Virus record (IMG/VR): IMGVR_UViG_3300029625_000012
Location: 1 to 25,723 of that record
Source of the DNA: a virus
Strand: one strand, 5' to 3'
Length of the DNA: 25,723 nt
Shown: positions 292-25,200 of the stretch, piece by piece
Position numbering within the stretch: the first letter of the stretch is position 1
Layout of the letters: each line of letters starts with the position of its first letter
Program-made: the position numbers and the translations under genes
Notes under the pieces: model-generated
Databases searched by the model: none
What the model saw: the letters and a program-made list of their open reading frames with translations, nothing else
What the model was told of the DNA's origin: nothing

Positions 292-1550
292 TGCCCTTAG
301 ATGATCTGAGACGTAAGAGACGACTTAAGTATGTAGCTCCTGAACCTATTCCGGATAGTCAAAGTACCTCTTTGACAGAACTGGGGGCCTCCTCCCCCGG
401 TAATTTTCAAAGTGTAACTGAGGATCATATAGTTACACTAAAACAAGAATTAGCTGCATGGAACAATATTCTGGAAAATCTTGAAGTCGCATTATCTAAT
501 GTGAGCATACCTGTACCAATAGGACCGAAGGGGGAGACTGAAGAGGTAACTCTGGAAACGTTGAAATCGTGGATGGATAGCGGTGTAGAGATGGCTGACA
601 ATATTATTGCATATGAAACCGCTTCTATTGAACATGAAAATTTTGCCGGTCTTCTTTTCGGTATAGCTAGGGATATTCGTGACGAGATAGTTTCTGAAAT
701 AGGAGACCATATTGAGGGTTTACACGTACCACCTCTCCTTGACTTATCTAGAAAAAAAGTATCACTCGAAAAACAAGTACGAAATCGAATAGAAGGAATA
801 GATGTATCTGTTCCGCCTGGCGGTAAAAAGTCACAAAGTGGAATTTTATCTGATATTAATAAAGCTCTTAAGAATGTTCCCGAGTGTTTTGTCGAGAAAT
901 TAATTCGCTATTGGAACTTGACTGAACCTGGATTATCAAGTAACGTCGGATTTAATCAGACCGGTACGCAGATTATAAATATGGTAAATGCCTATCGACT
1001 TGCTACGGCATTATCTAAAGATAGAAGTAAAGTAAATTGGGCTAAGACAAGGAGGAATATAGGTAATGCTTTTGTTGGTAGGTTAATATCTAGGGGATTT
1101 AATGAGTTTAATTCTCTTCTTTTTAAAGCTTCTGAGGCTACAGCGAATCCCGTATCAGCGCTTTTGCATTCTCTGGGTTTGGATGCGTTTCGAGATTGCG
1201 ACTATTTTATTCAATGGGCAAATAAATGGTCTGGAGAAATTCTTAAGATTAAATCTGATTTAATAGGTCATATAGCTCAAGAAGAAAATAGAATAATGCG
1301 TAGGTACGATGGATACAATAAGCTTTTAGATATCGTGGACGAACAGGTACAGCATAAATCGGATCGAGAAGTTTTGGATTTAGTAGATCAGGTTCTTAAG
1401 CAGCTAAGTCCGGAACAAAGGGCTGCACTTAGAGAAGTCCCCGCTTATTCTATGAAGCTTGCACATTATATAGTAACAAATAAAGATAAGATTTCTGATG
1501 TACAGGTTATTCTTGACTACGTTAGGAAATTAGTTCCTGCTTACGGTTAG
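291..1550 (+). CDS. Unrecognised 419-aa protein between terminase and portal
   Basis: I do not recognise a family. The protein is soluble, charged and mostly helical, with no signal peptide or membrane segment. Residues about 1-45 are basic then low-complexity (DLRRKRR, then a Ser/Thr/Pro stretch). Helical segments around 48-75 and 325-415 could pair as coiled coils. The start ATG overlaps the terminase stop, so the two are translationally coupled. Its place between terminase and portal suggests a role in packaging or a minor virion role, but that is inference. The codons for GASSPGNF (residues about 32-39) carry the first copy of the dispersed G-rich motif, on the opposite strand, next to a GGGGG...CCCCC inverted pair. 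Confidence 0.8.
   Translation: MPLDDLRRKRRLKYVAPEPIPDSQSTSLTELGASSPGNFQSVTEDHIVTLKQELAAWNNILENLEVALSNVSIPVPIGPKGETEEVTLETLKSWMDSGVEMADNIIAYETASIEHENFAGLLFGIARDIRDEIVSEIGDHIEGLHVPPLLDLSRKKVSLEKQVRNRIEGIDVSVPPGGKKSQSGILSDINKALKNVPECFVEKLIRYWNLTEPGLSSNVGFNQTGTQIINMVNAYRLATALSKDRSKVNWAKTRRNIGNAFVGRLISRGFNEFNSLLFKASEATANPVSALLHSLGLDAFRDCDYFIQWANKWSGEILKIKSDLIGHIAQEENRIMRRYDGYNKLLDIVDEQVQHKSDREVLDLVDQVLKQLSPEQRAALREVPAYSMKLAHYIVTNKDKISDVQVILDYVRKLVPAYG
391..405 (-). repeat. G-rich motif copy 1
   Basis: Reverse-strand core TACCGGGG (395-402 on +, read as CCCCGGTA) inside the 419-aa gene, followed by GGAGGAGG and CCCCC. An upstream GGGGG makes a GGGGG/CCCCC hairpin with it. Confidence 0.8.
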
Positions 1551-1554
1551 AAAA

Positions 1555-1995: not shown

Positions 1996-2437
1996 AAAAT
2001 TCTGGTATTGGATTCAGGACATTATTCTCTATAAAGTACTTAACACTAAATACGTAGAACTTGCTTATAATAAAAGAATAGAAATAGTAAGAAATATTAT
2101 CTGTGATCTATTTCCAATAGATGAGCCTTACGTTTTTCAAGGTCGTTGGAGCTGGTGTAAGGACTCCGAAGGCAATCCGCAGGAAATAACACTAGTCCTT
2201 TTAGATAAAAAACTTTTCATTCATGTCCTCAGGCCGGAGGTGGGAGACTGGTATCAAGTTCGTAATCTGTGTAAGAACAGGAAAGAGTGGGAAAGGATTA
2301 ATGCAGATTATGCGCTGATGGAAGGAGTAATGGATGCGCTTAAAGAGGAGGTCGCATTCATATCAATACCTTGGGGATATCCGGTAAATAAGTTTTCTTT
2401 GAGGGAACTCGTTGGCAATTATAGAACCACAAAGTAA
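1988..2437 (+). CDS. Unrecognised 149-aa protein upstream of portal
   Basis: I recognise no family. The N-terminus (MLKKFWYWIQDIILYKVL) is aromatic and amphipathic and could lie on a membrane. The rest looks like a compact alpha/beta domain containing FQGRWSW, a strand pair around 65-82 and an acidic helix near the C-terminus. It has four cysteines with no metal-binding spacing. ATG at 1988 overlaps the end of the membrane-protein gene by eight bases, and its own end overlaps the portal start by 26 bases, so it belongs to the same coupled translation unit. The function is unknown. Confidence 0.75.
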   Translation: MLKKFWYWIQDIILYKVLNTKYVELAYNKRIEIVRNIICDLFPIDEPYVFQGRWSWCKDSEGNPQEITLVLLDKKLFIHVLRPEVGDWYQVRNLCKNRKEWERINADYALMEGVMDALKEEVAFISIPWGYPVNKFSLRELVGNYRTTK

Positions 2438-4091
2438 AAAGATTAGGACCGGTTTAGGATCTAATATAAAAACGATAAAGTCTGCTCAAGCTAAAGGATT
2501 TAAGAATCCTGTATTAAATGCGCAGATAGGAAGTGGTTTTCGAGCAACACAGGTAACTACTAAACCTCCGTTTGATCTTGAAGCCCTACGAAACGCCTAT
2601 CTTGTAGATAGCTATGTTCGTCAAGGGGTTGATAAATATATCGAGATAATGCTTAAAGAAGGTTATTATCTCGACGGAAAAAAGCGACCTAAAGAATATT
2701 TAGAAGATAGACTTATGGAGATAGCTCGAGCTACAGATATCCCTTGGGCTGTAACCGTAGAAAATACCGTCAGGGATTTTATAAAATATGGAAATGCATT
2801 TTTAGTCGTTGTTCGTAATAGTGATGGTACGGTTGGTGGATACTTTAATCTCCCCGCGCACCAGATGTTCCCAGAACTAGATGAGAACGGAAATATTTTA
2901 AGCTGGGTACAAGTTGCATCTAGAGATCGAAAGAAGTCATTTAATCCTAAAGATATTTTGCATTTTACTTACGCTAAGGAATCCGGAGGAATTTGGGGGA
3001 TTCCTTATATTGTATCTGTAATTGAAGATATTAGAGCCTTGCGACAAGCTGAAGAGAGTGTGCTTAAGTTAATCTATAAATCTCTTAGTCCTCTAATTCA
3101 CGTTCAAGTTCCTGATATTACGAATACCGGGGAGGGGAGGCAGGAAGACATTGACGATGCCGTCCGGCAATTTCAGACCGCAGCTCCTGATGGAATTCTC
3201 GTTACTCCTCCGGGACATAAGATTACGGCTATTGGTGTCGAATCTCAAGCCCTCCGTGCAGAGGGCTACTTGAAAATGTTCAAGAACAGGGTCTTCTCAG
3301 GACTTGCGGTTTCTCCCCTCCTTATGGGTGAGAACGCCGGGGCTCCTGGAGGAACGGCCGATGCGCTTGTTGTTGAACTGCATCATAAGGCTAAAAGATT
3401 TCAGGTAGCTCTTTCTCAATATTTTGAATTTTATATCTTTAATCCTCTCTTAGTAGAGGGTGGATTTGATCCTTGGGGTCAAGCCGATCATAGAGTTAAA
3501 TTCGCATGGAATGAGATAGAGCTTGATCGAAGGATTAAAGAAGAGGCTCATATTGTCAACCTTTGGACCGGTGGAATACTTACGTTTGCGGAAGCACGAG
3601 ACATGCTGAAGCTTGATCCGAATGCTTCTTCTGATGATACATACGTTCATCATTCTTCGATCCCGCAGGTGATTGCTTCCAGGTTGGGAATTGATCCCAA
3701 GGATCTTTCCGAAGACGAACTTAAAGATTTGGTGATGGGTGGACTTGGGGGCCCATCTTTTAAAGGAGGTTCCACTAAAGAGCCTAAGGTGAGTAAGCTT
3801 CCCCAGAATATCGTAAGTCCGTCTAATAAGACTACCGGACCGAATGCAAGGGTAAAGGTTCCGGTTTCTAATTCGGCAGACGAAGAATTAAGAAACAAAC
3901 TAATAGGTTTAGTGTCTGCAGGTTGTGATCGAAAGCTGTTGGAATCTCATATAGATGATCCAGAGTTAGTAGAATTAATAGATAGCTGGCAAAAGGATTT
4001 CGGCACATTAGAAACAATGTTGCGGATTAATGCTTATTTTTCAATAAAGAACAAAATAGGAGTCCAAAATGAAATGGATCACGGAGATTAA
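2412..4091 (+). CDS. Portal protein
   Basis: A 559-aa protein with the typical portal architecture. The wing and stem region has DSYVRQGVDKYIEIMLKEGY near residues 57-76. A beta-rich clip-side section includes NAFLVVVRNSDG, FNLPAHQMFPELDENG and the PKDILHFTYAKESGGIWGIP block (about 178-197). Helical VIEDIRALRQAEESVLKLIY, then GLAVSPLLMGENAG and the C-terminal helices follow. Portals form the dodecameric DNA gate at one capsid vertex and dock the terminase. The start is TTG at 2412, with GAGGGA at 2401-2406 placed five bases upstream; the next in-frame ATG is too far inside the conserved region. The C-terminal ~140 residues are Pro/Ser/Gly-rich and then helical. A copy of the G-rich motif lies at 3124-3140, encoding NTGEGR. 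Confidence 0.9.
   Translation: MAIIEPQSKKIRTGLGSNIKTIKSAQAKGFKNPVLNAQIGSGFRATQVTTKPPFDLEALRNAYLVDSYVRQGVDKYIEIMLKEGYYLDGKKRPKEYLEDRLMEIARATDIPWAVTVENTVRDFIKYGNAFLVVVRNSDGTVGGYFNLPAHQMFPELDENGNILSWVQVASRDRKKSFNPKDILHFTYAKESGGIWGIPYIVSVIEDIRALRQAEESVLKLIYKSLSPLIHVQVPDITNTGEGRQEDIDDAVRQFQTAAPDGILVTPPGHKITAIGVESQALRAEGYLKMFKNRVFSGLAVSPLLMGENAGAPGGTADALVVELHHKAKRFQVALSQYFEFYIFNPLLVEGGFDPWGQADHRVKFAWNEIELDRRIKEEAHIVNLWTGGILTFAEARDMLKLDPNASSDDTYVHHSSIPQVIASRLGIDPKDLSEDELKDLVMGGLGGPSFKGGSTKEPKVSKLPQNIVSPSNKTTGPNARVKVPVSNSADEELRNKLIGLVSAGCDRKLLESHIDDPELVELIDSWQKDFGTLETMLRINAYFSIKNKIGVQNEMDHGD
3124..3140 (+). repeat. G-rich motif copy 2
   Basis: Forward core at 3125-3132 in the portal gene (ATACCGGGGAGGGGAGG), with two further G-runs. 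Confidence 0.8.
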
Positions 4092-4593
4092 AGATAGGCT
4101 GGTTAGGAGGATATTTAATATCCAGTACGATCTTGCAGAGCTTCAGCTTATAATTTCAGGTATACTTTTAGGCATTATGCTTTTGAGTGACTTTAAGAAT
4201 AGTGAAGTCCATAGGATGCTAGAACCATATTCTTTATATTATGTTAGTTGGTCATTGATTATTTCTTCGATTTGTTCTTTGATTGGGATCAGCTTTGATA
4301 ACATACGTGCTAGGATGGTGGGAAGTTTGTTGGCTTCCATGGCTTGGGTTTATGTTTTGGCAGCATCCGGAATTACAGGAAGTTTATTTTCCGTAGCCTC
4401 TTTAGTTTTTGCTTTATCATCGGCTTTTGTTTACTTAAAGCTCTCGGCTAAGTTTTATAGGAGTAATGAGAAACATGGATTTATTACAGAAGCTACTCGT
4501 TCCGCTGGGAACTTCCATAATTTCCGGAGTCATAGTCGTTCTGATTGGACACATTTTTTCGAGCATAACAGAACGCCTAAGGGCAAACTATGA
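4069..4593 (+). CDS. Small polytopic membrane protein
   Basis: A 174-aa protein with four hydrophobic helices at about residues 23-42, 54-76, 85-102 and 104-124, and a basic N-terminus (KDRLVRR). I recognise no family. It starts inside the end of the portal gene, with the AGGAG at 4060-4064 as a ribosome site. Its last ~42 residues overlap the next gene for 128 bases in another frame; that polar tail (rich in His, Ser, Asn and Arg) may simply be tolerated read-through. Two membrane genes between portal and protease could be holin-like or exclusion proteins, but neither has a diagnostic motif. Confidence 0.65.
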   Translation: MKWITEIKDRLVRRIFNIQYDLAELQLIISGILLGIMLLSDFKNSEVHRMLEPYSLYYVSWSLIISSICSLIGISFDNIRARMVGSLLASMAWVYVLAASGITGSLFSVASLVFALSSAFVYLKLSAKFYRSNEKHGFITEATRSAGNFHNFRSHSRSDWTHFFEHNRTPKGKL

Positions 4594-4789
4594 ACTGCCT
4601 TTGAGGGAGCTAGCCGATGATCGAAGAGCTGTAGAGAATCTTTCTCAACTGCTTCTTTCTTATATTGATCAGCTAGATGAATGCACGAAGGAGAAACTTA
4701 AATTGGAGGGATTGGTCGAAAAGCTTTCTAGAAAATTATCCGAAAATGTGGAAAATAAATCAAGTAAAGGCCCATCCCCCGGTAATTAA
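4466..4789 (+). CDS. Single-pass membrane protein with coiled coil (i-spanin-like shape)
   Basis: A 107-aa protein with one N-terminal membrane helix (about residues 9-30, LLVPLGTSIISGVIVVLIGH) followed by a charged helical stretch to about residue 95 with heptad-like leucines. This is the topology of inner-membrane spanins (Rz-like), though I see no lipoprotein partner inside it, and other single-pass phage proteins share the shape. The start is uncertain. AGGAG at 4459-4463 is only two bases from ATG 4466 but 11 bases from a second in-frame ATG at 4475, which gives MDLLQ. The last codons (GPSPGN, stop) coincide with a copy of the dispersed G-rich motif at 4777-4784. Confidence 0.65.
   Translation: MRNMDLLQKLLVPLGTSIISGVIVVLIGHIFSSITERLRANYELPLRELADDRRAVENLSQLLLSYIDQLDECTKEKLKLEGLVEKLSRKLSENVENKSSKGPSPGN
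4770..4788 (-). repeat. G-rich motif copy 3
   Basis: Reverse core at 4777-4784, spanning the last codons of the spanin-like gene; flanked by AATTAAGG, which also serves the protease ribosome site. Confidence 0.8.
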
Positions 4790-4803
4790 GGAAATAATAA
4801 GAA

Positions 4804-6714
4804 ATGGCAAATAAAATTAGATTAGTTGAATCCGTTCTTATAGATAATAAAAACATTCTAGAAAGTTCTCCAGTTAAGAAGATTCGTGAAGAGCAGGAAC
4901 TTCCTAAGGTTTTATATCCGGAGATTTGTGCGATTAATGCCAACCAGGTAACTAGAAATAAAACCTATTATCCTGTGGAAAGCCTGGTTCCTGCAGACGG
5001 TAAAAAGTACGGCTTCGTTACAATGCTGGATCCTTACCCGATTCCGGTGATTAAAGATCATGAAACCGGGGGAGGGTTTTTCGGTGGAGAAGCAAGCGAC
5101 ATATTTGGAAGAGTTATCTATTCGGAATTTGTTGCGGATCCTACGTCCGGTGGATATGTATCTTGTGTTGCTTCAATTACTGATGAAGAAGCTATCAAGA
5201 AAATTCTTTCTGATCGATGGCTTACCGTTTCCATAGGTGTTGAGTCAGAATGGGTTAAGTGCTCGATTTGCGGAGAGGATCCCTTCGGTCCTGAATGTGA
5301 TCATAAAAAGGGCACTACCTATATGGTAAATGGTAGTCCCAAGGAATGTTTTTGGATCATCGGTCCTGTGACGTTCTTGGAGCTTTCGTTTGTAACGGTT
5401 CCGAGTGATCCTAAAGCTAGAATAATTAGCAAAAATAGGTTCGGAGAATCCTTGAAGTTGCTTGCTACTGAGCTTCCCGGTGGAGAGGAGCTCGTTATCA
5501 AAGGTTCTAAAGAGCGGCTTCATTACATTAAAGAGAGGTGGAAAATTGAAGAAATGAGCGAAAATGTCAAGAATGAAGGGCCGCAGGATGACAAGTTCTG
5601 TACGTATGGCGAGCTCTTCGGTTTAGACGAATCTGATGAGGATTACCATAAGGAGGCAAAGCTCAGAGCAAAAGATAGGAAGAAGCTACCCGATTCTGCT
5701 TTTTGTGGTCCGGGCAGGTCTTTTCCGGCACATGATGCAACGCATGCCCGTGTAGGTCTTTCTCTATTGGGGCGCTATAAGGGTCCGGGAGATAAAGATC
5801 GAATTCGAGCTTGTTTGCAGAGAAAGCTGGCCTCTTTTAAAAAGGGAGGAAAAAAAGAATTGTTCCCTCTAGCTAAAATCAAAGTAGGAAATGAGGAGCT
5901 TGAGATTCTCCCTGTGAGTAAAAGCCGAGTAATGGTTGTAGCCGAGGATCTTAAAGGTTTGAATGCTTCTGAAAAAATGAAGTCTCAGCTCATCGCATTG
6001 CTGGTGAAATACTGCAAGGAGAACAAACTTCCCATTCCCAAAGCCTACAAAGAAATTACGCCGAGTGAAAATCTAGAATCTGTTTCTCTAGATCCGAATA
6101 CCGATGCTTCTTGGGCTCTTCCCCTTTGGATGGATTACGTCCAACGAGAATCCATGGGTCCGAAAAAGAAAAAGCTTCAGAAAGAAATGAAGAAGCAGGA
6201 GAAGAAGTTCAAGAAGGAGGCAAAGAAGTTTGAGAATGAGATCAAAGAGCTGAAGGAACAAGTAGATGTACTTAATAAGCATTCGGTGGAAGTACATTCC
6301 AAAGCTCTTCGGAGATCTTGTGAACTCGCTGCGTTTCTTTCTTTGAGTCTCAATTCTTCTCTGGCAAAGGATAGGTCCTTCGATAACCTTGTAGAGGAAT
6401 TCGTAAAGCGCGGACCTCAATATGTTGAGGAGACGCTTGGTGATCTTTTTAAGGAATACAAGGAATCAGGGCCTGTTCCCCCGGTAAAAGAATTAAAGAA
6501 AGTCGAGCACATAGAAAGTCCGGTAATTAAAGAAGATGAGCGAAAGCCGTTATCTCAATTGGTTGTAGATCCGGATACAGGAAAGACTACGGTAGACGCC
6601 AAAATTACCGAAGAAGAGGATGAAACGGTTTTTCTCTATACTGGTCTTTCTAAGGAAGAGCTTCAAAAGAAAATTAGTGAGCGACTTGCTTCAGACAGAC
6701 TTAAGTCCAAATAG
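4804..6714 (+). CDS. Prohead maturation protease fused to a scaffold-like coiled coil
   Basis: A 636-aa protein. Residues about 38-210 form a prohead serine protease of the T4 gp21/herpesvirus-assemblin type, with catalytic His86 in IKDHE, Ser143 in TVSIG and the closing strand ELSFVTVPSDP (193-203). A Cys-x2-Cys...Cys-x-His knuckle (C153, C156, C165, H167) is inserted before the last strands, as in several phage homologues. Residues about 266-346 resemble the DUF6582 module (LPDSAFCGPGRSFPAHDATH). Residues 451-495 are a Lys/Glu-rich coiled coil, followed by an acidic tail. Such fusions act as protease and internal scaffold, and are removed after capsid assembly. The loop after His86 (TGGGFFGG) looks expanded and is encoded by a near-copy of the G-rich motif (5064-5076). 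Confidence 0.88.
   Translation: MANKIRLVESVLIDNKNILESSPVKKIREEQELPKVLYPEICAINANQVTRNKTYYPVESLVPADGKKYGFVTMLDPYPIPVIKDHETGGGFFGGEASDIFGRVIYSEFVADPTSGGYVSCVASITDEEAIKKILSDRWLTVSIGVESEWVKCSICGEDPFGPECDHKKGTTYMVNGSPKECFWIIGPVTFLELSFVTVPSDPKARIISKNRFGESLKLLATELPGGEELVIKGSKERLHYIKERWKIEEMSENVKNEGPQDDKFCTYGELFGLDESDEDYHKEAKLRAKDRKKLPDSAFCGPGRSFPAHDATHARVGLSLLGRYKGPGDKDRIRACLQRKLASFKKGGKKELFPLAKIKVGNEELEILPVSKSRVMVVAEDLKGLNASEKMKSQLIALLVKYCKENKLPIPKAYKEITPSENLESVSLDPNTDASWALPLWMDYVQRESMGPKKKKLQKEMKKQEKKFKKEAKKFENEIKELKEQVDVLNKHSVEVHSKALRRSCELAAFLSLSLNSSLAKDRSFDNLVEEFVKRGPQYVEETLGDLFKEYKESGPVPPVKELKKVEHIESPVIKEDERKPLSQLVVDPDTGKTTVDAKITEEEDETVFLYTGLSKEELQKKISERLASDRLKSK
6476..6488 (-). repeat. G-rich motif copy 4
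   Basis: Reverse core at 6479-6486 in the protease/scaffold gene, encoding PVPPVK. Confidence 0.75.
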
Positions 6715-6771
6715 TAATTCATTGAAGAAGTAAAGCTTCTGATATTTATCCGATTATAAGGAGATAAGAAC

Positions 6772-8034
6772 ATGGCGTTAATAGGTTCTCAACAGTTTAG
6801 CGGAAGGATTTGGGCACCTGGGATCAAGATCTCGGGTATGAACTCTCCTGCAGAGGAGTGGACAATCGACCCGAACTTGCCCCCTCTTGGTACCGATCCG
6901 CGATATCCTACCTTGGATCAGATCGTTATTCCGCGTGGTCGACTTCTTGCAGTTCGACCTGATACTACTTCGTATACCGGCCTTGCTGTTCTTACTATCG
7001 CAGATGGTGTGAGCAACAAGCCTGCCGGTTATACAGAAACGAATATCTTCCGTCAGTGGCAGGAAAAGATCCAGTGGATGCCTTCGATGAGTCGACAGGA
7101 ATTCATTGAGGTGCCGTATGTTCAGTCTATTAATGGGGCGTATGGTACTCCTGCTGCCGGTGATCGTATTACCGCATACTTTGGATCTGCAAGCTCTACG
7201 GCTCCTGTGCCGCAGGATAGGGGCAAGATCGTGAAGTGGGTGGAAAAGAAGGTGTTTGCAATGCCCACACAGACGGCTGCTACTTCGGCGGCTCTTATGT
7301 CTGCAAACCTTCCAGCTTTTCAGCCCACGATTATTATGGCTCTTAACGCCGGTACAGTAGTTTATCCCAGCGGTTCCAATTCTGTAAGCCTTGCATGGAA
7401 CGCTACTCTTGGTGCTTGGGTGGCTACGTTTAATGTAGCTGTTACCAACGTGCTTTACAGCTTTGGGCAAGCTGCAGATCAAATCGCCGGTGAGGTAATC
7501 CGTGTTGAACCGATTTCTTCTTCGCATCACCTTAGCGGTTGGCTTGAGTGGGTAACGGATAACTTCCTTGCTTGGGAATATCCGCCTCAGCTTCTGCGTG
7601 TACCTACTACTTCGGTTACCGGTGAAGTTCCGGCGACAGTGGTTGCGGGTCAGCAATATAGGTTGGGCAATAAGCCCATTGCTCCGTGGCTTCAGATTAA
7701 CGTGTACGTAACCGGTAGCCTGACGAATCCTGATGGCTCTGTGACTACGTTGAATAACACGTTGATGAGCACGGCAAATCTTCCGTTTGTTGATTATACT
7801 CTTGGCCAATACTATAACATCAATCCTGTAACAGGTGATCTCTTCTTCAGTTCTAATGTGACTGTAACCTCGGTTTCGGTTGATTATAGCTATGAGACCG
7901 CTTATCGGGATGGTCGTCTGTTTAATGCAGGTGTAATTGGTCTTACCGATGGTCGCTATTCCGGCGTTCCAGGCACTCCGGCGAATCTTGAAGTAGCAGG
8001 TGTCGTTGGATCGCTTAGGTGCATTGTTTATTAA
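6772..8034 (+). CDS. Probable head structural (decoration or minor capsid) protein
   Basis: A 420-aa, beta-rich protein low in Lys and rich in Gly, Thr, Ser, Pro, Trp and Tyr, without membrane segments. It lies between the protease/scaffold and the major capsid gene, behind a strong GGAG ribosome site. Its codons are markedly more GC-rich and uniform than those of the flanking genes (GGT, CGT, CTT and ACC preferred), as in the capsid gene, which argues for high expression. I do not recognise a family with certainty. In this position phages usually encode a decoration, cement or vertex protein; the C-terminal half (TTLNNTLMSTANLPFVDYTL onward) looks like stacked beta strands. A long antisense frame here is a codon-bias shadow. 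Confidence 0.7.
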   Translation: MALIGSQQFSGRIWAPGIKISGMNSPAEEWTIDPNLPPLGTDPRYPTLDQIVIPRGRLLAVRPDTTSYTGLAVLTIADGVSNKPAGYTETNIFRQWQEKIQWMPSMSRQEFIEVPYVQSINGAYGTPAAGDRITAYFGSASSTAPVPQDRGKIVKWVEKKVFAMPTQTAATSAALMSANLPAFQPTIIMALNAGTVVYPSGSNSVSLAWNATLGAWVATFNVAVTNVLYSFGQAADQIAGEVIRVEPISSSHHLSGWLEWVTDNFLAWEYPPQLLRVPTTSVTGEVPATVVAGQQYRLGNKPIAPWLQINVYVTGSLTNPDGSVTTLNNTLMSTANLPFVDYTLGQYYNINPVTGDLFFSSNVTVTSVSVDYSYETAYRDGRLFNAGVIGLTDGRYSGVPGTPANLEVAGVVGSLRCIVY

Positions 8035-8053
8035 TACCGGGGAAGCCCTGGGG
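8033..8053 (+). repeat. G-rich motif copy 5
   Basis: Forward core at 8035-8042, beginning at the stop codon of the head protein gene, followed by a second GGGG at 8050-8053 in the downstream hairpin. Confidence 0.8.
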
Positions 8054-8068
8054 ATTTATTTTCCCAGG
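8047..8068 (+). terminator. Hairpin after the head protein gene, possible attenuator
   Basis: CCTGGGGA (8047-8054) pairs with TTCCCAGG (8061-8068) around a TTTATT loop, giving an 8-bp stem just after the stop and just before the major capsid gene. No long T-run follows, so it may act as a partial terminator, RNA-processing site or mRNA stabiliser. It sits immediately downstream of a G-rich motif copy. Confidence 0.5.
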
Positions 8069-8071
8069 CCT

Positions 8072-8089
8072 TGTTCCAATTTCGGAACA
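8072..8089 (+). other. Second hairpin in the head protein/capsid gap
   Basis: TGTTCC (8072-8077) pairs with GGAACA (8084-8089) around a six-base loop. Together with the hairpin at 8047-8068 it forms a tandem pair in the leader of the major capsid mRNA, suggesting mRNA stabilisation or processing rather than simple termination. Confidence 0.4.
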
Positions 8090-8127
8090 GAAATCCTGTG
8101 TAACAACTGTAAAGGAGAATATATTCT

Positions 8128-9300
8128 ATGGCACAGCTATTTTCTGAGATAGTTAAAGAACACGCTCAAAAGGAGTTAAGTGCCCTGGCGCTGCCGGATG
8201 GGAAGTCTATTGATGTGAAGGAGTTCTATAAGGGTGTTGAGATTTTGAGCAATATGATGCGAACGGACAGCGCCTCGCGAACTCCACGCATTCCCATTGA
8301 GGAAGCATTGAGGGCAGCTGACGTTTCCATTCTTTTCCCGAAGGTAATTTCTGACGTACTTTTGCGTCCGAAAGAGCCCCTCTTTATCGGTCAGACGCTT
8401 CTTGCGCGTACCGTTCAGGTCGATAACGTAAGGTCGGTAGAGTTTCCGACCATGGGTGCAATTCGCGCCTTCGATATTCCGGATACCGGTGAATACCGCG
8501 AGCAACTTCCAGCCTTCACCGAGAACCTGATTGAGATCAAGGTGAACAAAGCCGGTCTCATGATTGGGATTAGCGAAGACGTAATTAAAGACAGCATGTG
8601 GGACATTCTGGCCCTTTATGTAGAGTCTGCCGGTTATGCTATGCTTCGCCATAAGGAAGAGAAAATCTTCCTTGAGATGCAGAATCACGGACATAAGGTA
8701 TTCGACAACAGTTCGACCAATCCGGCTGCGTGGACGCACGGCAGGGCCTACAACCAGACCCCGAACTATAGTGTAACCTTCGACGACATGATCGATACTA
8801 TGGGTGCTCTGGTGTCTCACGAGTATGTTCCTACGGACTTTATCATGCACCCCCTGGCTTGGGCGGTGTTTGCTAAGGACCCGATTATCCGTAACGTGAT
8901 GTACACACGCGGTCAGATCGGGCAGTCCGTATGGACCTCTATTCCGCAGTTCGATCAGCAGATTAACGTCCCGTGGAACGTGAATTATCAGGTTTCGCCT
9001 TTCGTTCCGATTACCATTAATGGAACGCTGGCGACCGGTCCTGCAAGTGGACTTCCTGCTACTAACATCACGGATATTTACGTTATTGATCGAAATCATA
9101 GCGTAGTGGTGTTGCAGCGAGATCCCATTAGTACCGAGGAATTTACGGATCCTCGTCGGGACATCCAGAACCTGAAGATTCGAGAGCGGTATGGCGTTGG
9201 TACGCTAAACGGCGGTCGGGCTACCGCGGTGATCAGTAATGTTCGATTGGAGCAGAACTGGGCTCCTATCAATAGCTATATTACTGTTACACCCTCGTAA
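8128..9300 (+). CDS. Major capsid protein (HK97-fold)
   Basis: A 390-aa protein of the right length and order for an HK97-fold capsid subunit. An N-terminal helical arm (residues about 1-60) precedes ISDVLLRPKEPLFIGQTLL (about 75-93), which fits the start of the P-domain region. VRSVEFPTMGAIRAFDIPD fits an E-loop, and EIKVNKAGLMIGISEDVIKD (about 137-156) is the typical strand then spine helix. PTDFIMHPLAWAVFAKDP lies in the A domain, and IYVIDRNHSVVVLQRDPIS with IRERYG in the closing strands. It would form most of the capsid shell. It directly follows the protease/scaffold pair, has a strong AAGGAG ribosome site, and uses the GC-richest and most biased codons in the window. Confidence 0.9.
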   Translation: MAQLFSEIVKEHAQKELSALALPDGKSIDVKEFYKGVEILSNMMRTDSASRTPRIPIEEALRAADVSILFPKVISDVLLRPKEPLFIGQTLLARTVQVDNVRSVEFPTMGAIRAFDIPDTGEYREQLPAFTENLIEIKVNKAGLMIGISEDVIKDSMWDILALYVESAGYAMLRHKEEKIFLEMQNHGHKVFDNSSTNPAAWTHGRAYNQTPNYSVTFDDMIDTMGALVSHEYVPTDFIMHPLAWAVFAKDPIIRNVMYTRGQIGQSVWTSIPQFDQQINVPWNVNYQVSPFVPITINGTLATGPASGLPATNITDIYVIDRNHSVVVLQRDPISTEEFTDPRRDIQNLKIRERYGVGTLNGGRATAVISNVRLEQNWAPINSYITVTPS

Positions 9301-9316
9301 TGGTTCTGTTCATATA

Positions 9317-9341: not shown

Positions 9342-9363
9342 AAGCTGAATAGGGAGGCGAACC

Positions 9364-10905: not shown

Positions 10906-11489
10906 GCACGGATATATTTAGACTCCAAAAATCTTATTCGAAAAATCCTTTTGGATTGCCTTCTGGATTTAATCTTAGAAAAGGATTTAATGATTTTCTA
11001 GGAGCACACCCAAATTGGTTTGTATATGTCCGTAGGGATCTTAGATACCCATATCCTGGAGGATTTGATCCTGCTACACGAAGTCCTGAAGCTTTAGTAC
11101 CGGAAACGTTTGGCTTAGGTTATAAAGTAACTTACGAAAAGCACAGGGTTCGTCGGGTCATAGTTCCCAAGATGATAGATAACCCCATTCAAGAATATGG
11201 ATTCTTGGGGCGTTATAGGACGATTATCTATACGGCGAGAGAAAATTATCCACAGAATAAAGATGTTTATCTTGAAGTAGAATGGGATTCGGATCTCAAA
11301 GATATTCCGAAAATCGGAAAGCCCATTAATATAATTAAAGCGTATTTGGTTGACGAGGTTATTTCCCTAAATGAAGATGAGGTTACGTATTTTGGTTGTG
11401 GTTGTGATGTTTATGATTTTACTAAAGACCTTATGGATGCTTGGTTAAAAAATTTAGGCAATGTGTGGGTAATCAATGAGCTTTCATGA
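10902..11489 (+). CDS. Probable head-closure/neck protein
   Basis: A 195-aa protein beginning at TTG 10902, which overlaps the previous stop, with AGGAGAG at 10889-10895 as ribosome site. It has an N-terminal basic helical part, then a beta-rich body (FGLGYKVTYEKHRVRRVIVP, YRTIIYTAREN, VYLEVEWDSDLKDIP) and a helical C-terminus. I see no diagnostic motif. The size, beta-barrel-like pattern and place between the connector and the sheath-like gene fit a head-completion or stopper protein that seals the portal after packaging. Confidence 0.6.
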   Translation: MSTDIFRLQKSYSKNPFGLPSGFNLRKGFNDFLGAHPNWFVYVRRDLRYPYPGGFDPATRSPEALVPETFGLGYKVTYEKHRVRRVIVPKMIDNPIQEYGFLGRYRTIIYTARENYPQNKDVYLEVEWDSDLKDIPKIGKPINIIKAYLVDEVISLNEDEVTYFGCGCDVYDFTKDLMDAWLKNLGNVWVINELS

Positions 11490-15605: not shown

Positions 15606-16322
15606 ATGCCTAGCAATATTGGAAATTCATATAATCTGATGGTACAAGATACCAAGAAGACGTGGAGTGCATTTACCGGTGCTGATATTACTGCATATAT
15701 GGGGAACGTGCAAATTGCCACACTTGAGGGTATCACGGTATCCGTCACACGCGAGGTGATGCCCATCTTTGTGATGGGCGATCCAAGCCCCAAGGCCTTT
15801 GCGAAAGGTAAGCGGGCTATCGCTGGCAGCCTTATTTTTAGCCAGTTCGACAAGCATGCTGTGTTGCGATATGCCAAGGGTGTAACAACGCTTTATGACC
15901 TGTTTAGCCCGAGTGCTCAAGCGAATGTAAAGCAACCCAGTAACGTACAGACTATCTCCGATTCGTTTACGTACGGTTCGTGGCAAAGACACCTGAATTC
16001 CGACGGGACGTTCGATAATATTTCGTCTGCGCTTCTTCAGGATATTAATGAGACGCTCTTCTTGGTGTCCCAGCGGAAGGCGCATTTCGCGGATCAAATC
16101 CCGCCTTTCGATGTTACGATTACCCTTGTAAACGAAAATGGTGATGCGTCTTATACGGCAATTCACGATGTTCAGCTTGTGAACGAAGGCTGGGGCTACA
16201 GTTTGGACGACATTTCGAGCCAGGTGTCTTTCACTTTCCTTGCTCGGGATATTGATCCTCTCGATAGCCTGGCCGACCTTAATTCAATCCAGAGCAATAC
16301 TGGTGGTGGGGCAATCGTATAA
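15606..16322 (+). CDS. Tail tube protein (main)
   Basis: A 238-aa tube subunit. It has the typical opening TGADITAYMGNVQIATLEGITVSV, then REVMPIFVMGDPSPKAFAKG, KRAIAGSLIFSQFDKHAV (about residues 75-92) and, near the end, QIPPFDVTITLVNENGDASYTAI. The tube subunits stack as hexamers inside the sheath and carry DNA and tape measure. Codon usage is GC-rich and biased like the capsid gene, and the gene is framed by hairpins on both sides, so this is the abundant copy of three tube-like genes in a row. An AGGAGG ribosome site lies a few bases upstream of ATG. Confidence 0.9.
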   Translation: MPSNIGNSYNLMVQDTKKTWSAFTGADITAYMGNVQIATLEGITVSVTREVMPIFVMGDPSPKAFAKGKRAIAGSLIFSQFDKHAVLRYAKGVTTLYDLFSPSAQANVKQPSNVQTISDSFTYGSWQRHLNSDGTFDNISSALLQDINETLFLVSQRKAHFADQIPPFDVTITLVNENGDASYTAIHDVQLVNEGWGYSLDDISSQVSFTFLARDIDPLDSLADLNSIQSNTGGGAIV

Positions 16323-16338
16323 TTATATATTAGCTTAT

Positions 16339-16364
16339 GGGCCCCCGAAAAAATTCGGGGGCTC
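16339..16364 (+). terminator. GC hairpin after the main tube gene
   Basis: GGGCCCCCGAA (16339-16349) pairs with TTCGGGGGCTC (16354-16364), with one G-T wobble, around an AAAA loop, 17 bases after the tube stop. The stem is as strong as an intrinsic terminator's but lacks a T-tract, so it may only reduce read-through or protect the tube mRNA 3' end. The same gap carries a G-rich motif copy. Confidence 0.6.
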
Positions 16365-16384
16365 TGGCTAAAACTAAATAAATG

Positions 16385-16403
16385 GCCCCCATTCCCCGGT
16401 ATT
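16385..16403 (-). repeat. G-rich motif copy 10
   Basis: Reverse core at 16394-16401 in the non-coding gap before the second tube-like gene; the paired C-run at 16385-16390 gives AATACCGGGGAATGGGGG on the opposite strand. Confidence 0.8.
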
Positions 16404-16419
16404 AGGAGAAAAATATTAG

Positions 16420-17277
16420 ATGGCAGGAGTAGGAATGGAAAGAGATAGGTGGATAGGAGATTTAAAAAGAAATCGACAAGAAAATCCTATTTTCTCTGCT
16501 ACAGACATATCTGCCTATTTTTGTATTCCTCAAGATCCTTATAGCATTTCTAGGAACAAGACTGAGCCTACTCGAAACTATTTAATTGGTAATCTCTCGG
16601 TTGTGTCAATTTCTACACATAGAGATAAGTTTCCGGTAACTGCTTTAGGAAATGTTGGAGTTCGCGGATTCACTAGAGGACATCGTATAATAGGTGGAAC
16701 ATTGGTTTTCCAGACCTTCGACAGACATGCGTTCTACGATTTCTTTATTGATTTGGAAGTAACTAGAACAGGCGCATCTAGAGAAGATTTAACATCAGCA
16801 ATTTCAACAATATTAGCAGATGAGATGCCTCCGTTCGATATAATAATTTCTATGGTGAATGAAGATGGTGCGGTAGCTTTTACAAGCATCTTAGGTGTCG
16901 TTATCCAGGATGAAGGAAAAGCTATGAGCGTGGATAACATAAGTATTTCTGAGACCTATTCGTATATGGCTGCAGCATATCTTCCGATGCAGCCGACTTT
17001 GCCAAAACCACATAAACCAACAAGTTCAGATGCATCATATCATAACAACATTTTCAATAAGTATAGATTATCATTGAATCCCAAATATCAGTCTTCGTTT
17101 AATATCGGTATCGGATACTCTGGTTCTGGTTCTAGTTTAAACCTCAATACCGGATACTCTGGTTCTGGTATGGACCTTAGTCTTTCTGGAGCGTCTCTTT
17201 CATCATTGGGTGGTGGTAGTGCTACCTATGTGATTAATGGTAATTCACTTCCGAATCCGAATTCTACTCTTCCTTAA
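16420..17277 (+). CDS. Second tail-tube-fold protein with Gly/Ser repeat tail
   Basis: A 285-aa protein. Residues 20-190 align with the main tube protein: FPVTALGNVGVRGFTRG/HRIIGGTLVFQTFDRHAF here against MPIFVMGDPSPKAFAKG/KRAIAGSLIFSQFDKHAV there, and EMPPFDIIISMVNEDGAVAF against QIPPFDVTITLVNENGDASY. It has a ~20-aa longer loop near residues 38-58 and a C-terminal extension (about 190-285) rich in Ser, Gly, Asn and Leu with a GYSGSG repeat. Codon usage is AT-rich, unlike the main tube gene, so it is probably a minor component such as a tube-initiator or baseplate-proximal ring. It follows the hairpin and motif copy at 16339-16401. Confidence 0.8.
   Translation: MAGVGMERDRWIGDLKRNRQENPIFSATDISAYFCIPQDPYSISRNKTEPTRNYLIGNLSVVSISTHRDKFPVTALGNVGVRGFTRGHRIIGGTLVFQTFDRHAFYDFFIDLEVTRTGASREDLTSAISTILADEMPPFDIIISMVNEDGAVAFTSILGVVIQDEGKAMSVDNISISETYSYMAAAYLPMQPTLPKPHKPTSSDASYHNNIFNKYRLSLNPKYQSSFNIGIGYSGSGSSLNLNTGYSGSGMDLSLSGASLSSLGGGSATYVINGNSLPNPNSTLP
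17112..17169 (+). repeat. Short direct repeat encoding GYSGSG
   Basis: CGGATACTCTGGTTCTGGT occurs at 17112-17130 and again, identical over all 19 bases, at 17151-17169, 39 bases (13 codons) apart and in frame. The perfect match at the DNA level suggests a recent duplication in the flexible tail of the second tube-like protein. Confidence 0.9.
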
Positions 17278-17283
17278 TAGGCG

Positions 17284-18096
17284 ATGAGATTTTATAGAAA
17301 AGGTTATGAAGAAGTAGCGTCTTATGGAGACGCTAGTACAATTCTAGTAGACGAGTTTAACTCGGCTTACTGGTCTGGGCTGGATGTAAGAATTTATTTT
17401 AATGGAATTTATATTGATGAGGTTGTTAATATCCAATTCCAGGTATCAGAAAACGTAATTCCCATTTACGGATATGGGGATTATGAAATGCGTTCTATTT
17501 TGCGTGGTTCGAAAAGCGTTCAAGGTGCGTTTTCTATTAACTTTAAGCGTTCCGGTTATTTACTTCAAGTAGCACGCGAAGTAGCAAATCCGGAATCCGG
17601 GTTAATTCCTACTCACAAAGGAGAAGAGCAGTTTAGGAAGAGCCTGCTAGATGACAGAACTATCGAACAATATCTTAAGGTTCTTATGAGCAGTAAAACG
17701 AGTTCAGGATCTTCTTCTGGTAGCATTGCAGGCAAGATTAATTCTAATGACTCTTTAATTAATCTTGAACTGCTGGATAGTATTGCGAAACGTCAATCGG
17801 AAAAATTTTGGGGAAAAATAGAAGCAGATGTTACGTCTGTCAATCCTCCCAAGAATGCTCCCTTGATATCGACTGCTTCTGGATTTTCCATTATAATAAG
17901 ATATGGAGAACCCGTAGGATTAGAAACATCACAGATTCAGAATGACGTGTTTTACAGGTATCCAGGAACTGTGGAGATCATTCGGGGAGTAGTACTTACG
18001 GGAATGAACAAATCAATTGATGATAGTGGTAGAAACATCCTGGAAGTCTACTCATTTATAGGTTCTAACTTGTTATCAGAAATATCTGAATTCTGA
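17284..18096 (+). CDS. Third, divergent tail-tube-fold protein
   Basis: A 270-aa protein. Residues about 34-100 match the tube pattern: NGIYIDEVVNIQFQVSENVI, PIYGYGDYEMRSILRG and SKSVQGAFSINFKRSGYL, the same order of strands and the same G-x-x-x-x-G-x-(F/L)-x-F core as the two preceding genes. A helical, Ser-rich insertion (about 100-190) follows, and a final beta part (FSIIIRYGEPVGLE ... VEIIRGVVLTGMNKSIDDSG) closes the fold. In myoviruses, proteins with this fold at the tube end serve in the baseplate hub or tube initiation, which is the likely role here. It starts seven bases after the previous stop. Confidence 0.7.
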   Translation: MRFYRKGYEEVASYGDASTILVDEFNSAYWSGLDVRIYFNGIYIDEVVNIQFQVSENVIPIYGYGDYEMRSILRGSKSVQGAFSINFKRSGYLLQVAREVANPESGLIPTHKGEEQFRKSLLDDRTIEQYLKVLMSSKTSSGSSSGSIAGKINSNDSLINLELLDSIAKRQSEKFWGKIEADVTSVNPPKNAPLISTASGFSIIIRYGEPVGLETSQIQNDVFYRYPGTVEIIRGVVLTGMNKSIDDSGRNILEVYSFIGSNLLSEISEF

Positions 18097-18113
18097 TAGA
18101 AAGGAATGATTTA

Positions 18114-18785: not shown

Positions 18786-18787
18786 TC

Positions 18788-19252: not shown

Positions 19253-19258
19253 GTTTAG

Positions 19259-22200
19259 ATGTATTCATATCAGGACAGAGATTCTAAAGGTAATAACTTA
19301 TTTAAAGCTGCAGTATTTGGCGGTGCTATTGCGTTTGGAATCTGGCACAACCCTGAAGCTACAGCAGCATTTACCAGAAGTGCAATAACTGCGTACCATG
19401 CTATGGCGTCCTGGCTTGAAAGGGGCGTCTCTCACGGTCTTCTGTCCGACGTTAGAAGCTCTCTTGCTGCATTTCGCCGGGGATCCCTTGGACGTATAAG
19501 ACTTGTTAGAAATCTTTCTGAATACTCGAGTGCAGTACGAACATATCGTGTAGATATTAGAGAGGGACTAGTTAGAGAGAATATTAAATACGAACTCCAA
19601 CAAGCGAGTGATCTCGGATTTAACGAAGAGATGGCTGAGATATTTACTCGAAATCCAGGTACATCTCTTGATATAGCTGCTACAAGTGTAAATCTAGCAG
19701 AAGTACTACAATCTCCCCACTATGTTGAAGAAGTTTTCCCTGAACTACAACGAAGATTTGGGTTCGTGGTTAGAAATCGAGATGAGTTTTTAAAAAGGAT
19801 TGAAGAAATTGTATCGAATGCTCATATAAGGACTAATGCGCGAATTCCGCAAGAAAGCGTGGTAGCTGCAGGTGGAGGAGACCTCTATAGAGCGCAGGTG
19901 GGTTTCTCTAGGGAATTTGTGCAAAATCAGCTTATTCCCATGGAAGAGGCTAGAAGAGCGAGAGCAGAAGCACTTAGTGCTAGATTCGGATTAAACGAAG
20001 TTACACTGGGTGAAATATTAGATGAAGATGACTTAGTTAGAAATGCTGCAGATAGGTATATTAGGCAGAGAATAGACCTTGCAAGAAATCCTGGCAGATA
20101 TCAGGAGTTAGTCCATCAAAGGCAGTTTTTCTCAGATATGAGAGAAGCTATTAAAGAAGAGAAGTTTCAAGCGTTACAAGGAGATCAGCATGCACCTAGA
20201 AGTCGCAGAGGAATGCCGGTATCGGAAAACGAAGATTTTATTTCAGGCATGGTAGAGCTGCTTGTTAATGCGAATGATGAACGATTAAGAAATAATGAAG
20301 TTACCGAAGACGAATTCGTTCGCGGGATCATGAATCAACTTCGCAGTATCGGTACTGGAGTCTATAGAATAGATCAGGGTACTGATAGAGAAATGCTTTT
20401 TGACTGGACCACAAATGCAAAATTCTTAAAAGCAATATTAGGAAAGGTTGCCGACGAATTTCAGATTCCGATTGCTCCCGGAATTATTGGCCTTCCCGTT
20501 CTTAAATTTTTCCCCTGGTTACGTGGGCATGCTAAAGACGTAGTAGGATCTCTAGGGGCAGGAAGTTTCCAAAGAGACATTTATGAAGCGCTTAGAGCCC
20601 ATCCTTCACGTAGAAACCGAGAGTTGTTAAGGAATTTATTTAGATTTGATGAAAATAATACTACTGATTACAGGCTAAGAAGAGATTTAATCTATGTCAG
20701 AGGGGCGTTAATCGATCCGACAACCGGAGAGAAATTGCCTGGAACCTTTGACGTTCGGGATGTGCGATACGGTACCCAACGCGAGATGGCTAGGGTGAGA
20801 AATCAACAAGTACCTTCAGCACCTGGGTCAATTAGGCAAAGGGCAGGAGGTTCTTTTATAGGTCGACTTATGGATTTCTTCTCTCTAGGACAGCAGTCCG
20901 GTACTACCAAACCGGCGCGTTGGATTTCAACAGTTGGAAAATTTGCTCATCCCGATGAGGGAGTTAATCGTTATCAGCCCCTTAATGCGTTTGCTGCTCT
21001 GGAACATGGTAACCTACAAGAAATGAGCTATGAAGAACGTTTCAGACTCGCTCGTGCAGTCCATCGAGGGGTATCGCGTGCAACAGAATTTCCAGAAGAG
21101 CTGCGTTTAAGCGATGTATTTGACATTGATATGTTCAGAGATAGGGAGGGGGGAATTCAATCCAATGCTGGACTAGTAAGATATATTAAAAGAGTTCTTG
21201 CAAGTCCGGAACTAGAAGATGAAGATCAACAAGTAGTTTTTGAGCACCTTCTTTCTGATGAACATCTTGCGGAACTACTGGAACAAATCGATGTGCTAGC
21301 TGTTCAGGGGATGCCTAGGAGTCGAACAACCATTCAGCTTCCAAGTGGTAGAGACTTTCAAATTCCGGTTCTAGAATATAGAGAGTATAGAGATTTGTCA
21401 GGAATGCGCACTCGACTGGAAGCACGAAGATTTGGACAGGATGAATTTTCAGCTTTTACGGAAGAATCGATAAGCGCCGGTAGACAATTCGGATTTCCTT
21501 CAACGGAGCCGCTGTTAGGAAGCCAAGGAGGATCTAGTGGAGCACAAAGAATTCGAAGCATATTCTTTGAGGAATTATTAGAACAAGCTGCAACGGTAGA
21601 TTCTGGATCCATAGAAGTAGATCTAGACTCGGCTAATGAAGTTATGGATCGGGTTAATCGATATCTATTCCACCCAATTTTTGAAAACATTGACAGACAA
21701 GTCGAATTAGGTAGGCTAAGCGATTCTAAAGCAAATGAACTTAAGGCACGAACATGGGCTTTGTATGCAGGCGCGTTAACAGAAAAGAGATATGATAGGG
21801 GTCCGGAATTACTTCATGCCTTTTTGATTACCTTATTTAGATATGGGGAGGAAGAAAGAACTCCTACAGAAATAGGAGAAATAGTTCGACAGAATCTGTC
21901 AAAGAATTATGGACTTCTTTCTACATGGACCGAGAGTGAACACGAAGCACTTCAAGCAACGGGTATGCAACTTTATGCGGCTGCTAGTGGTCCAAGGCCC
22001 GGAGTAAATGCAGAGGGTACTGGACTTCTTAATTGGCTTACTAATGTAAGAGATTGGAGGAGTTTAGGACAAGCAATTGCTGGAGCAATTAATCGAGCTC
22101 CTAGCGATATGCCAGGAACACAGCCTTTTAATGCTGCATATCATTTAGCTTTTCGTTTGAATGAAATGCTACAACATGCACCGATACCTTTAGGCCTTCC

Positions 22201-25200
22201 TGATAAGGATATTCAGGATACTTATAGCATTTATAAGAATCTTTTCCTAAAGCGGGTACTTCCGGTCTTCGGTGCTGTTGAAGCTTGGAAATATATTAAT
22301 TTCCAATCACATCAACTCTTTGGCTATGGTCCAGATGATTCGATCTCTGATGCTAGACGAGATATAGCACTTGCAGGTTCCTACACCGCAGACGCCTTAG
22401 GAGCCACAAAGCTGCTAAAGAAATTCGAACAATTAACTCCTGGAATGGAAGAATATCATCAGGCGAGATCTTATGAGGAACAAAAGGAGTATCTGGAAAG
22501 TGGTTGGGAACCGGTTAGACGGGGCCGGTGGTGGATGAGTGGGTGTCTCCATCCGAATGTCGAAGTATTAACTCTTTATGGAGCGAAAAAGATTTCTAAG
22601 ATTGAGGTTGGAGATTATGTTTTAAACATAGATGGAAAGGCAGTAACTGTTACCGAGAAATCTTCAAGACATGTGGAAGAAAACCTCCTTGAAATTAGAA
22701 CAACTGCCGGAGATCGCGCGAGACTTTACCTCACCGAACTCCATCCACTCCCGGTTTATGTAGCCGAAACTAACTCTTGGGAGTGGAGACCGGCAAATCA
22801 AGTTAAGGTCGGAGATTATTTGGCCTATCCTATCCCCCACCCCTCCCCCGGTATTTCTCAAATACCTGATAAGCTTTTAGATGAACTTCTGAATATTCTA
22901 CCAAACTGGATACTAGAAGGTAAACTTGTGCCTTTTGGAAACAGTTCTCTAGCTTTTTCTCTTCCAAACAAGGGTTCTCATAATAGCAGGAGTCTTTTTG
23001 AGCGAGATAAAACAAGTTCCAAGATAATTCAGGATCCGTTGATATCCTCCCTTCTTCTTGAAATATTTGTTGATAAGCCTTCCGGATTTAAAACCCTTCG
23101 TAAGGTTCCGTACTGGTTTTCCTATGAGAATATTGTTGAAATATTTTGGGAGGTTTTAAATGCGTTAGATCCGGACATCGCAGAGGATGAGATTCATGTA
23201 AATACAATTAATTCAGATTACCAAGTAGATATGCAGAGGATGGCCCTGTCGTTGGGCATGTATGTGCAGGTTAATTCCTGTTTTTCAATGGATGGGCAAG
23301 ACTATGCAGGATTAGTAATTCGTTCGAATGATGAATCAGCATTATTTACAGATACTCACGTCTATTTCCGAGTTACAGAAATTCACGAGTACCCATATTC
23401 AGGCGACGTTTATGATATTGCTGTTAGTGACGGAGAAAGTTTTTGTACAATAGGATGTGCAGTTCATAATAGCAGACAGGCTTGGGTAGGTGAAAGGGTT
23501 CAGTATTTCTCTCCTTCTTGGTATAGATTGCAACGAAGCCACTGGCAGGAAGCCGATAATGCAGATCTTAACTCAGAAGATTATTGGTCACATTCTCTCA
23601 TACCAACTCCTGGATATCCGTTCAGTCCCATTATGCATTTCCTAGATCCGTACTGGTTTGAGGAAAAGCACTCTATAGGTCCTAATGCAGATAGGCCATA
23701 TGTAATTAGTGGCGAGATGGCGGATCCGAACACGATTTGGGGAGTAGCATTCAATCAAACCTTAGGTAGAATAATTAAACCCCAGAAAGTCTATTATCCG
23801 GAATATCTAGATCCTAATTATGCAGCCGAACAAGAAAATGCGGAAAGACCAACAAAGTTTAGAATAAGGTATCAAACCGCCGGAGATTATAGGATTCTTG
23901 GAGCTAACGAACCGAGTGTTCCTGATGAGGAGGATACCGGGGGAGGTGGGGGCTTTGATTTCGATTCCGGGACAGGATCTTCAGGAGGCGCGCGACAAGG
24001 AACATCTGGAGGAAGTTATGGAGCTGGAGGAGGTTCGGTTTACGGAACCGGAGGTTCAGGAGGCGGTAGAGGAAGAGCCGTTTCTGGAGGGGGTCTTGGT
24101 GTAACCGGAGATACCTATGAATCTACTCCTGTACAGGCCGGCGGGGGCATGGTTGCTTCTACAAACATGCCTGGAAGATATTTTCCTGTACGAACAGATC
24201 AGCTTCAAGATTCGGAGTGGGAAGATCAGAACCTGGTTAATCCATTAAATCCTGTTCAGAGTGCTCAGAACTATTGGAATCAGGCTTTTGATATTCAAGG
24301 AATTTATGGATATCAGCAAAGACTGCTTTCTAGAATGGTCGGTTTGGATCCTTCTTCAGCTATAACAGATCCGATAATTCAATCACCTGTTCGTGCTTAC
24401 GGTTGGGAACGAAGATTTTGGGATAAATCTTTGGGTGGAATTCCGGGAGAGCTTTCTGAATATTGGCGTCGTATGCTGCCCCACAGAAATAGAAACGTAG
24501 ACGAATATAATCCCGTTCCTAATACCCAGCCAAACTGGATGCCCGGAAGTGATTACATGATAAACTTCCGGACCGGTGACCCATATGTCAAGATTCCAAT
24601 GGGTGAAATCCGAATTCCGGGTCAAGCCTACGAGATGGTGAATCCGGTTGATAAGCCTGGAATTCGTGCATCTTCTATTGGGTATAGCGTAGAAGAAATG
24701 ATGAACCATTTCGCTCAAGAGTATGGATTAGGTGGAACTGAAGGTTCATCATCCGGTCAGATGATAGACTATGATAGAGATGCACCTAATAATGATTCTT
24801 ATGCGATTAAATTTGGAAATAAATTCCACGCAGAAATGGAAGCGAAATGGCGATCCCTGGGAATCCTAGTTTCTTCCGAACGCAGAGTTTACGATAAAGA
24901 GCATAACATTTCCGGACACTATGACGCCCTGCTTCATCTGACTCCACAAAATAATCCGTTTGCTGGAGACGGATTTTACGTTGACCAGCCCGGTGAATAC
25001 ATGGTCGACATTAAGACCATGGGTGCTGAACAATTTGCAGAAGCTATGAAAGAGAATGCTCCTAGATCTGAACACGTTCAGCAGCTCAATTTTTACCTAA
25101 AAATGACGAATACTCAAAGGGGGCTTCTTTATTATGTAAATCGCGATGATCCCAAACAGAGAAGGGTATTTCCTATTCAGCTAGACGAGTCGCTCTACGA

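Follow-up and report, generated by a model that had tools for sequence, protein, structure and literature searches.

Locus and Related Phages

The window, meaning the whole stretch of 25,723 bases that was analysed, is an IMG/VR virus record and represents a fragment of a contractile-tailed phage. The following genes were assigned:

1-291: C-terminus of the large terminase, by its likeness to terminases
2412-4091: portal
8128-9300: major capsid protein
13838-15553: tail sheath
19259-25723: tape-measure-like gene, open-ended

Besides the sheath gene, ORF 11476-12933 gave a weak match to the sheath profile, and the region 15606-18096 was listed together with these two sheath-related stretches. 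Two sheath genes are annotated likewise in Moorella phage MTATph1 and Bacillus phage KLEB27-3. The tape-measure-like gene carries an intein-like insertion (22544-23470, plus strand) that begins with CLHPNVEV, terminates with VHN and was matched by Hint and intein-splicing profiles, both under the curated cut-offs.

Two proteins of the window, the sheath and the product of ORF 6772-8034, gave access to four related records:

G001: IMGVR 3300005573_000064, 117.6 kb, 51.5% GC, near-full
G003: 3300035180_001452, 122.4 kb, 41% GC, near-full
G004: 79.6 kb, with loci that closely match G003
G002: 10.9 kb, 97% identical to G003

The proteins common to the window and these relatives are about 40-75% identical. 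No relatives turned up in viral_contigs with the portal or major capsid protein of the window alone as the query, and the conserved protein of ORF 6772-8034 had no match in genome_contigs. The G001 homologue of the tape-measure-like gene has no CLHPNVEV-type start and shows an alignment gap where the insertion of the window sits. In G003, intein-like domains were found in the terminase, a helicase and a class II ribonucleotide reductase (L055:15813-18338, L057:10475-13024 and L057:16380-19856), so that, judging by the insertions in the window and G003, the clade looks rich in inteins. An Rfam search returned no match in the window or in the stretches of G001 and G003 that were searched.

An Octamer in Excess

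According to the original prediction, the octamer TACCGGGG occurs 12 times in the window (5 forward, 7 reverse) where less than one copy would be expected by chance. A recount over the 25.7 kb returned the same 12 exact copies, 5 and 7, and dinucleotide shuffles of the window (n = 100) gave a mean of 0.34 and a maximum of 3, in agreement with both figures. The copies and one near-copy are:

395-402, minus: in ORF 291-1550 (..SSPGN..), followed by GAGGAGGCCCCC
3125-3132, plus: in the portal gene (NTGEGR)
4777-4784, minus: near the stop of the 107-aa ORF 4466-4789; extended form GGGGGATGGGCC
6479-6486, minus: in ORF 4804-6714, within a 4-residue insertion relative to G001
8035-8042, plus: in a gap, immediately 3' of the stop codon of ORF 6772-8034
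10335-10342, minus: in ORF 9364-10905; LSPGI against LNPPL in G001, with no indel
13144-13151, plus: in ORF 12939-13817 (RIPGREGV)
13609-13616, minus: in ORF 12939-13817 (ASPVIY)
14191-14198, plus: in the tail sheath gene, adjoining a 1-residue indel
16394-16401, minus: between genes (gap 16323-16419), ahead of the start codon at 16420 and opposite to transcription
22846-22853, minus: within the intein-like insertion of the tape-measure-like gene, which is absent from G001
23935-23942, plus: in the tape-measure-like gene, within a stretch rich in Gly
5064-5071, plus: near-copy AACCGGGG, in which position 1 is A instead of T; GAGGG comes next

Two copies thus lie in gaps (8035 and 16394), as had been described, whereas the copy said to run across a stop codon reaches it only in its extended AATTACCGGGG form, the core at 4777 ending 2 bases short of TAA.

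The excess persisted when the proteins were held constant. Synonymous-codon shuffling with all proteins kept gave 2.65 ± 0.74 copies of TACCGGGG for the whole window (maximum 5 in 300 trials), a value that includes the two intergenic copies, which stay unshuffled. With the non-coding DNA masked, 9 coding copies were counted against 0.51 expected (-log10 P 8.4). TACCGGGG was the strongest among all octamers of the window in this codon-preserving test, with ranks 2 and 3 taken by overlapping forms of it, and it likewise came out on top when Markov models of order 1 or order 3 set the expectation and when dispersal was scored by the number of occupied bins.

Dialects in Related Phages

In G001, TACCGGGG is rare, with 2 copies in 117 kb (5.7 expected in the codon-preserving control). 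This apparent refutation was overturned by the finding that the top enriched octamer of G001 is a one-base variant, CACCGGGG, with 41 copies seen and 5.6 expected; 37 of these are coding, against 5.7 ± 2.4 or 6.2 in codon-preserving estimates. The form in G003 is TACCGGGA (40 seen, 1.8 expected), with 33 coding copies against 3.2 ± 1.7 or 3.0, and TACCGGGG is enriched there as well (18 seen, 1.4 expected). When occupied bins were counted, so that local repeats have no effect, a form of the motif ranked first in the window, G001 and G003 alike, TTACCGGG being narrowly ahead of TACCGGGA in the last. The copy numbers of the relatives are therefore far above shuffles, and not at the shuffled expectation that the original prediction had named as a refuting outcome.

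No comparable octamer was found in G499, a more distant phage with a sheath 45% identical, or in the parts tested of MTATph1, KLEB27-3 and Acinetobacter phage ME3, which indicates that the trait belongs to one clade. A further contig, L193, seemed enriched, but several of its copies belong to local repeats. A text search of the literature for the octamers returned only unrelated papers.

An origin in codon use, in CCGG richness or in the choice of the best among many octamers can draw on the fact that CCGG itself is enriched in the window (132 seen against 93 expected from trinucleotides). Such an origin is hardly tenable in view of the codon-preserving tests over all octamers, the order-3 Markov models and the replication of the excess in two relatives but not in the four distant phages.

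Placement and Turnover of the Copies

Both strands are used equally, and so are the two orientations relative to the genes: sense and antisense copies number 4 and 5 in the window, 40 and 41 in G001, and 32 and 38 in G003. Three of the 12 copies in the window lie between genes or at gene edges, as do about 9% of those in G001 and 11% of those in G003. The gaps between neighbours fit random placement and not a regular spacing overall. When orientations were shuffled, same-orientation sites came out less evenly spaced than they are in the three genomes (P = 0.066, 0.029 and 0.006), as would suit a polar signal required on each strand; this observation is post hoc and only suggestive. An alternation of orientation was suggestive in the window and G003 and disappeared in G001 once close pairs were removed. 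The evenness, together with the polarity of the word and its presence on both strands about once per kb, would also fit a mark for a transaction of the phage DNA, be it priming, site-specific nicking (compare the nicks of T5) or packaging. Known primase words are shorter, at 3-4 bases, and a role of this kind is very unlikely.

Sites were rarely kept at orthologous positions (1 of 12, 0 of 13 and 7 of 84 comparisons), and among the copies of the window only that at 3125 has a counterpart motif at the matching place in G001 (CACCGGGGAGGG). Residue identity at the sites was lower than at random positions (0.22 against 0.42, 0.31 against 0.46 and 0.39 against 0.45). The GREG residues at the copy at 13144 are conserved in G001 without the motif. 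An explanation of the copies by conserved codons, the other outcome named beforehand as refuting, was thus not borne out in the aligned genes of the relatives. The non-conserved positions and the use of both strands argue against position-fixed regulatory sites.

Between G003 and G002, 9 of 12 sites are in common and 3 differ by one base each, in all three cases apparently at a third codon position. Taken together with the rare retention of orthologous sites, this single-base turnover indicates that the positions of the sites change through point mutation and their density is upheld. It also bears on the proposal that the copies are a tiny mobile or insertion-generating element. The copy at 6479 within a 4-residue insertion, the copy at 14191 next to a 1-residue indel and the somewhat raised share of sites near alignment gaps (20 of 84, against 14% for random positions) would suit that proposal, but all three G003/G002 differences are single substitutions and not insertions of a constant unit, alignment to G001 shows no indel at 10335 or 13144, and nothing constant extends beyond the core. 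A mobile element is therefore extremely improbable.

Structure of the Word

The profile of the word was obtained by a scan of single substitutions against the codon-shuffled expectation in the window, G001 and G003. Positions 1-5 are strict, nearly all alternatives being near or under expectation, with weak excesses for T at positions 2 and 3 in G001 and for A and C at position 1 in G003. The window and G003 have T at position 1, and G001 has C. Tolerance at positions 6-8 is mainly for purine changes: G001 allows A for G there, and in G003 position 8 can be A, G or T. Strictness at positions 1-5 combined with purine tolerance at 6-8 does not correspond to a mutational gradient.

In the window, all 12 copies are preceded by A or T, and 11 of them have G or A directly after the core; the upstream side is A/T-rich, and positions +11 to +15 are G/C-rich. 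A weak GGGCC-like tail around +12 to +16 is common to the window and G001. Within 20 bases downstream, GGGC was seen 28 times against 6 and GGCC 25 times against 8 in G001, and GGCC 5 times against 0.4 in the window. Intergenic copies in G001 resemble YACCGGRRGGTGGGCCGG, of about 20 bp, and the extended site measures about 17-20 bp in the window and G001. G003 shows no G/C tail beyond the core and instead has inverted pairs such as TTACCGGGAATGTGAGACACTCTCCGGTAA, about 20 bp apart, several of them in early intergenic regions. A scan for close inverted pairs of the type TTACCGGGA..TCCCGGTAA yielded hits in diverse genomes and viruses, without consistent enrichment.

The G-rich tail of the original prediction is thus present in the window and G001 and absent from G003, and is no constant part of the word. 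The same holds against a G-quadruplex as a general explanation: four G-runs per copy are not found, since the G003 version TACCGGGA ends without the tail. A hairpin does not explain the word either, as a clear gain in folding stability of the motif strand over controls is confined to the window, and in G001 and G003 this strand barely exceeds other CCGG sites. Selection had been placed on DNA or RNA rather than on protein. The codon-preserving excess and the poorly conserved residues uphold a nucleic acid as its object, while the equality of sense and antisense copies speaks against RNA. Taken together, the features of the window, G001 and G003 reject chance, codon bias, a mobile element, RNA and a G-quadruplex as the general explanation.

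The main rival to the reading preferred below is a site, or half-site, for a putative phage protein that binds double-stranded DNA, either organising the genome (nucleoid-like, partition-like or packaging-related) or acting as a stoperator-like repressor. The extended site of about 17-20 bp with its weak GGGCC tail, and the inverted pairs in the early intergenic regions of G003, would be expected of such a protein. The spelling of the word is specific to the lineage, and the stoperator motifs of mycobacteriophages likewise diverge along with their repressors (PMC6550527). The stoperators of cluster A mycobacteriophages (L5, Bxb1) are similar in being many, asymmetric and dispersed, and their motif also differs among related phages. 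However, they number 20-30, follow transcription and lie in short intergenic spaces, whereas the present sites number about 90-100 per 120 kb, are randomly oriented with respect to transcription, are mostly intragenic and are not conserved in position among relatives. A binding site of this kind is a possible but doubtful explanation.

Search for a Host Signal

The phages might also mimic a signal imposed by their host, such as a self-marking, modification or DNA-uptake dialect. The DNA uptake sequences (DUS/USS) of Neisseriaceae and Pasteurellaceae occur about once per kb, on both strands, mostly in coding DNA and sometimes as inverted pairs, and differ as dialects between species, and in density, strand use, dialects and intergenic inverted pairs the phage word resembles them. 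To our knowledge, they have been described only in competent bacteria, and an uptake signal would bring a phage no obvious gain. Another massively over-represented octamer is HIP1 of cyanobacteria, of unclear function; HIP1 is a palindrome, whereas the phage word is non-palindromic and polar.

About 590 genomes contained nothing near the density of the word in the phages. The pattern YACCGGGGRA reached at most about 28 per Mb in 48 diverse genomes, compared with 350 per Mb for the window and 77 for G001. A longer pattern reached at most about 2 per Mb in 548 genomes of four phyla, against 78 in the window and 17 in G001, densities that rest on two copies in each of these, with none in G003. 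A host might share the core only. The search is therefore weak evidence against a host signal and no refutation, and a host-imposed signal is judged unlikely.

If the word is not a host signal, it could be a label of the clade, genome-wide and selected for density, with a phage-encoded reader and the co-evolved dialects TACCGGGG, CACCGGGG and TACCGGGA. This idea is speculative and rather less likely than not to hold, but, if true, it would represent a whole-genome self-label of a type new to viruses.

A Proposed Chi-Like Reading

A word of the TACCGGGG type is, with high confidence, a selected signal at the level of DNA, and probably a recognition signal of which the abundance and not the position counts. 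The known system that it most resembles may be Chi, and a Chi-like recombination or exonuclease signal is tentatively preferred here. Coliphages without a recombinase of their own over-represent Chi, GCTGGTGG, with a median observed/expected ratio of 3.12 and 0.2 per kb (PMC3784561). Like Chi, the phage word is a polar, non-palindromic octamer with a G-rich 3' end, dispersed in coding DNA without conserved positions, with an octamer-scale excess beyond composition and codon use. It differs in its sequence, in its excess (6- to 18-fold, where Chi has a median of about 3), in its density (0.35-0.8 per kb, against 0.2) and in its weak downstream GGGCC tail. The Chi-like reading is favoured by the codon-preserving excess in three phages, in each of which the word is the top octamer, and by the equal use of strands, the positional turnover, the even spacing of same-orientation sites and the strictness of positions 1-5.

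The proposed mechanism would operate as follows. Large contractile-tailed phages of the clade would carry YACCGGRR (TACCGGGG in the window phage) as a polar word at roughly 0.5-1 per kb across their genomes, the selected quantity being the number of copies per strand. A DNA-processing enzyme, putatively a helicase-nuclease of the RecBCD/AddAB type from the host or a phage counterpart, would travel along the phage DNA starting at breaks or ends. It would respond to the word in one orientation and switch from degradation to recombination or repair, so that phages with sufficient copies would survive and recombine better. We infer three things here: that the reader is an enzyme, that it is linked to recombination and that the dialects reflect differing specificities of the reader. 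Dialects would be equally natural for a phage-encoded binding protein.

Several observations speak against the Chi-like reading. None of the roughly 590 genomes has a phage-like density, whereas Chi is abundant in its host too; the excess is above that reported for Chi in coliphages; the GGGCC tail and the intergenic copies of about 20 bp exceed a bare Chi octamer; and the close inverted pairs in the early intergenic regions of G003 resemble operators or hairpins more. G003 also encodes a RecA-like recombinase. This favours the reading in being compatible with recombination-dependent growth, though it is no proof of it, and counts against the reading in that the excess of Chi is strongest in phages that lack a recombinase.

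Few genome-wide words of phages are well understood, Chi and the stoperators being the main examples. Neither the phage nor a host had to be cultured for the present word to be found; its over-representation exceeds that of Chi in coliphages, and from one relative to the next it changes by a single base at defined positions. Its reader should thereby be findable, either as a protein that differs in specificity between the G001 and G003 lineages or through a host that shares the word. The word could also serve as a signature that links contigs of these uncultured phages and perhaps their hosts.

Other Features of the Related Genomes

At about 84.7-92.1 kb of G003 (L056:4700-12100) lie nineteen similar intergenic modules built around GGCTAACGCC. 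Most contain the perfect hairpin AAGGAGGAGGGGCTAACGCCCCTCCTTCTT, after which a further stem-loop (GAGTGC..AGAGGACATGAGCCTCT..GCACTC) often comes; the modules have no Rfam match. A conserved protein of 520-530 aa is encoded in G001 (L017:4516-6108) and G003 (L056:15407-16975) and has no Pfam or PHROG match; the AlphaFold model of the 530-aa protein was too poor to judge. It contains HQGDCDGDRxGxH, which resembles the NADFDGD catalytic motif of the RNA polymerase beta-prime subunit, and in both genomes its gene adjoins that of a conserved unknown protein of 635-647 aa.
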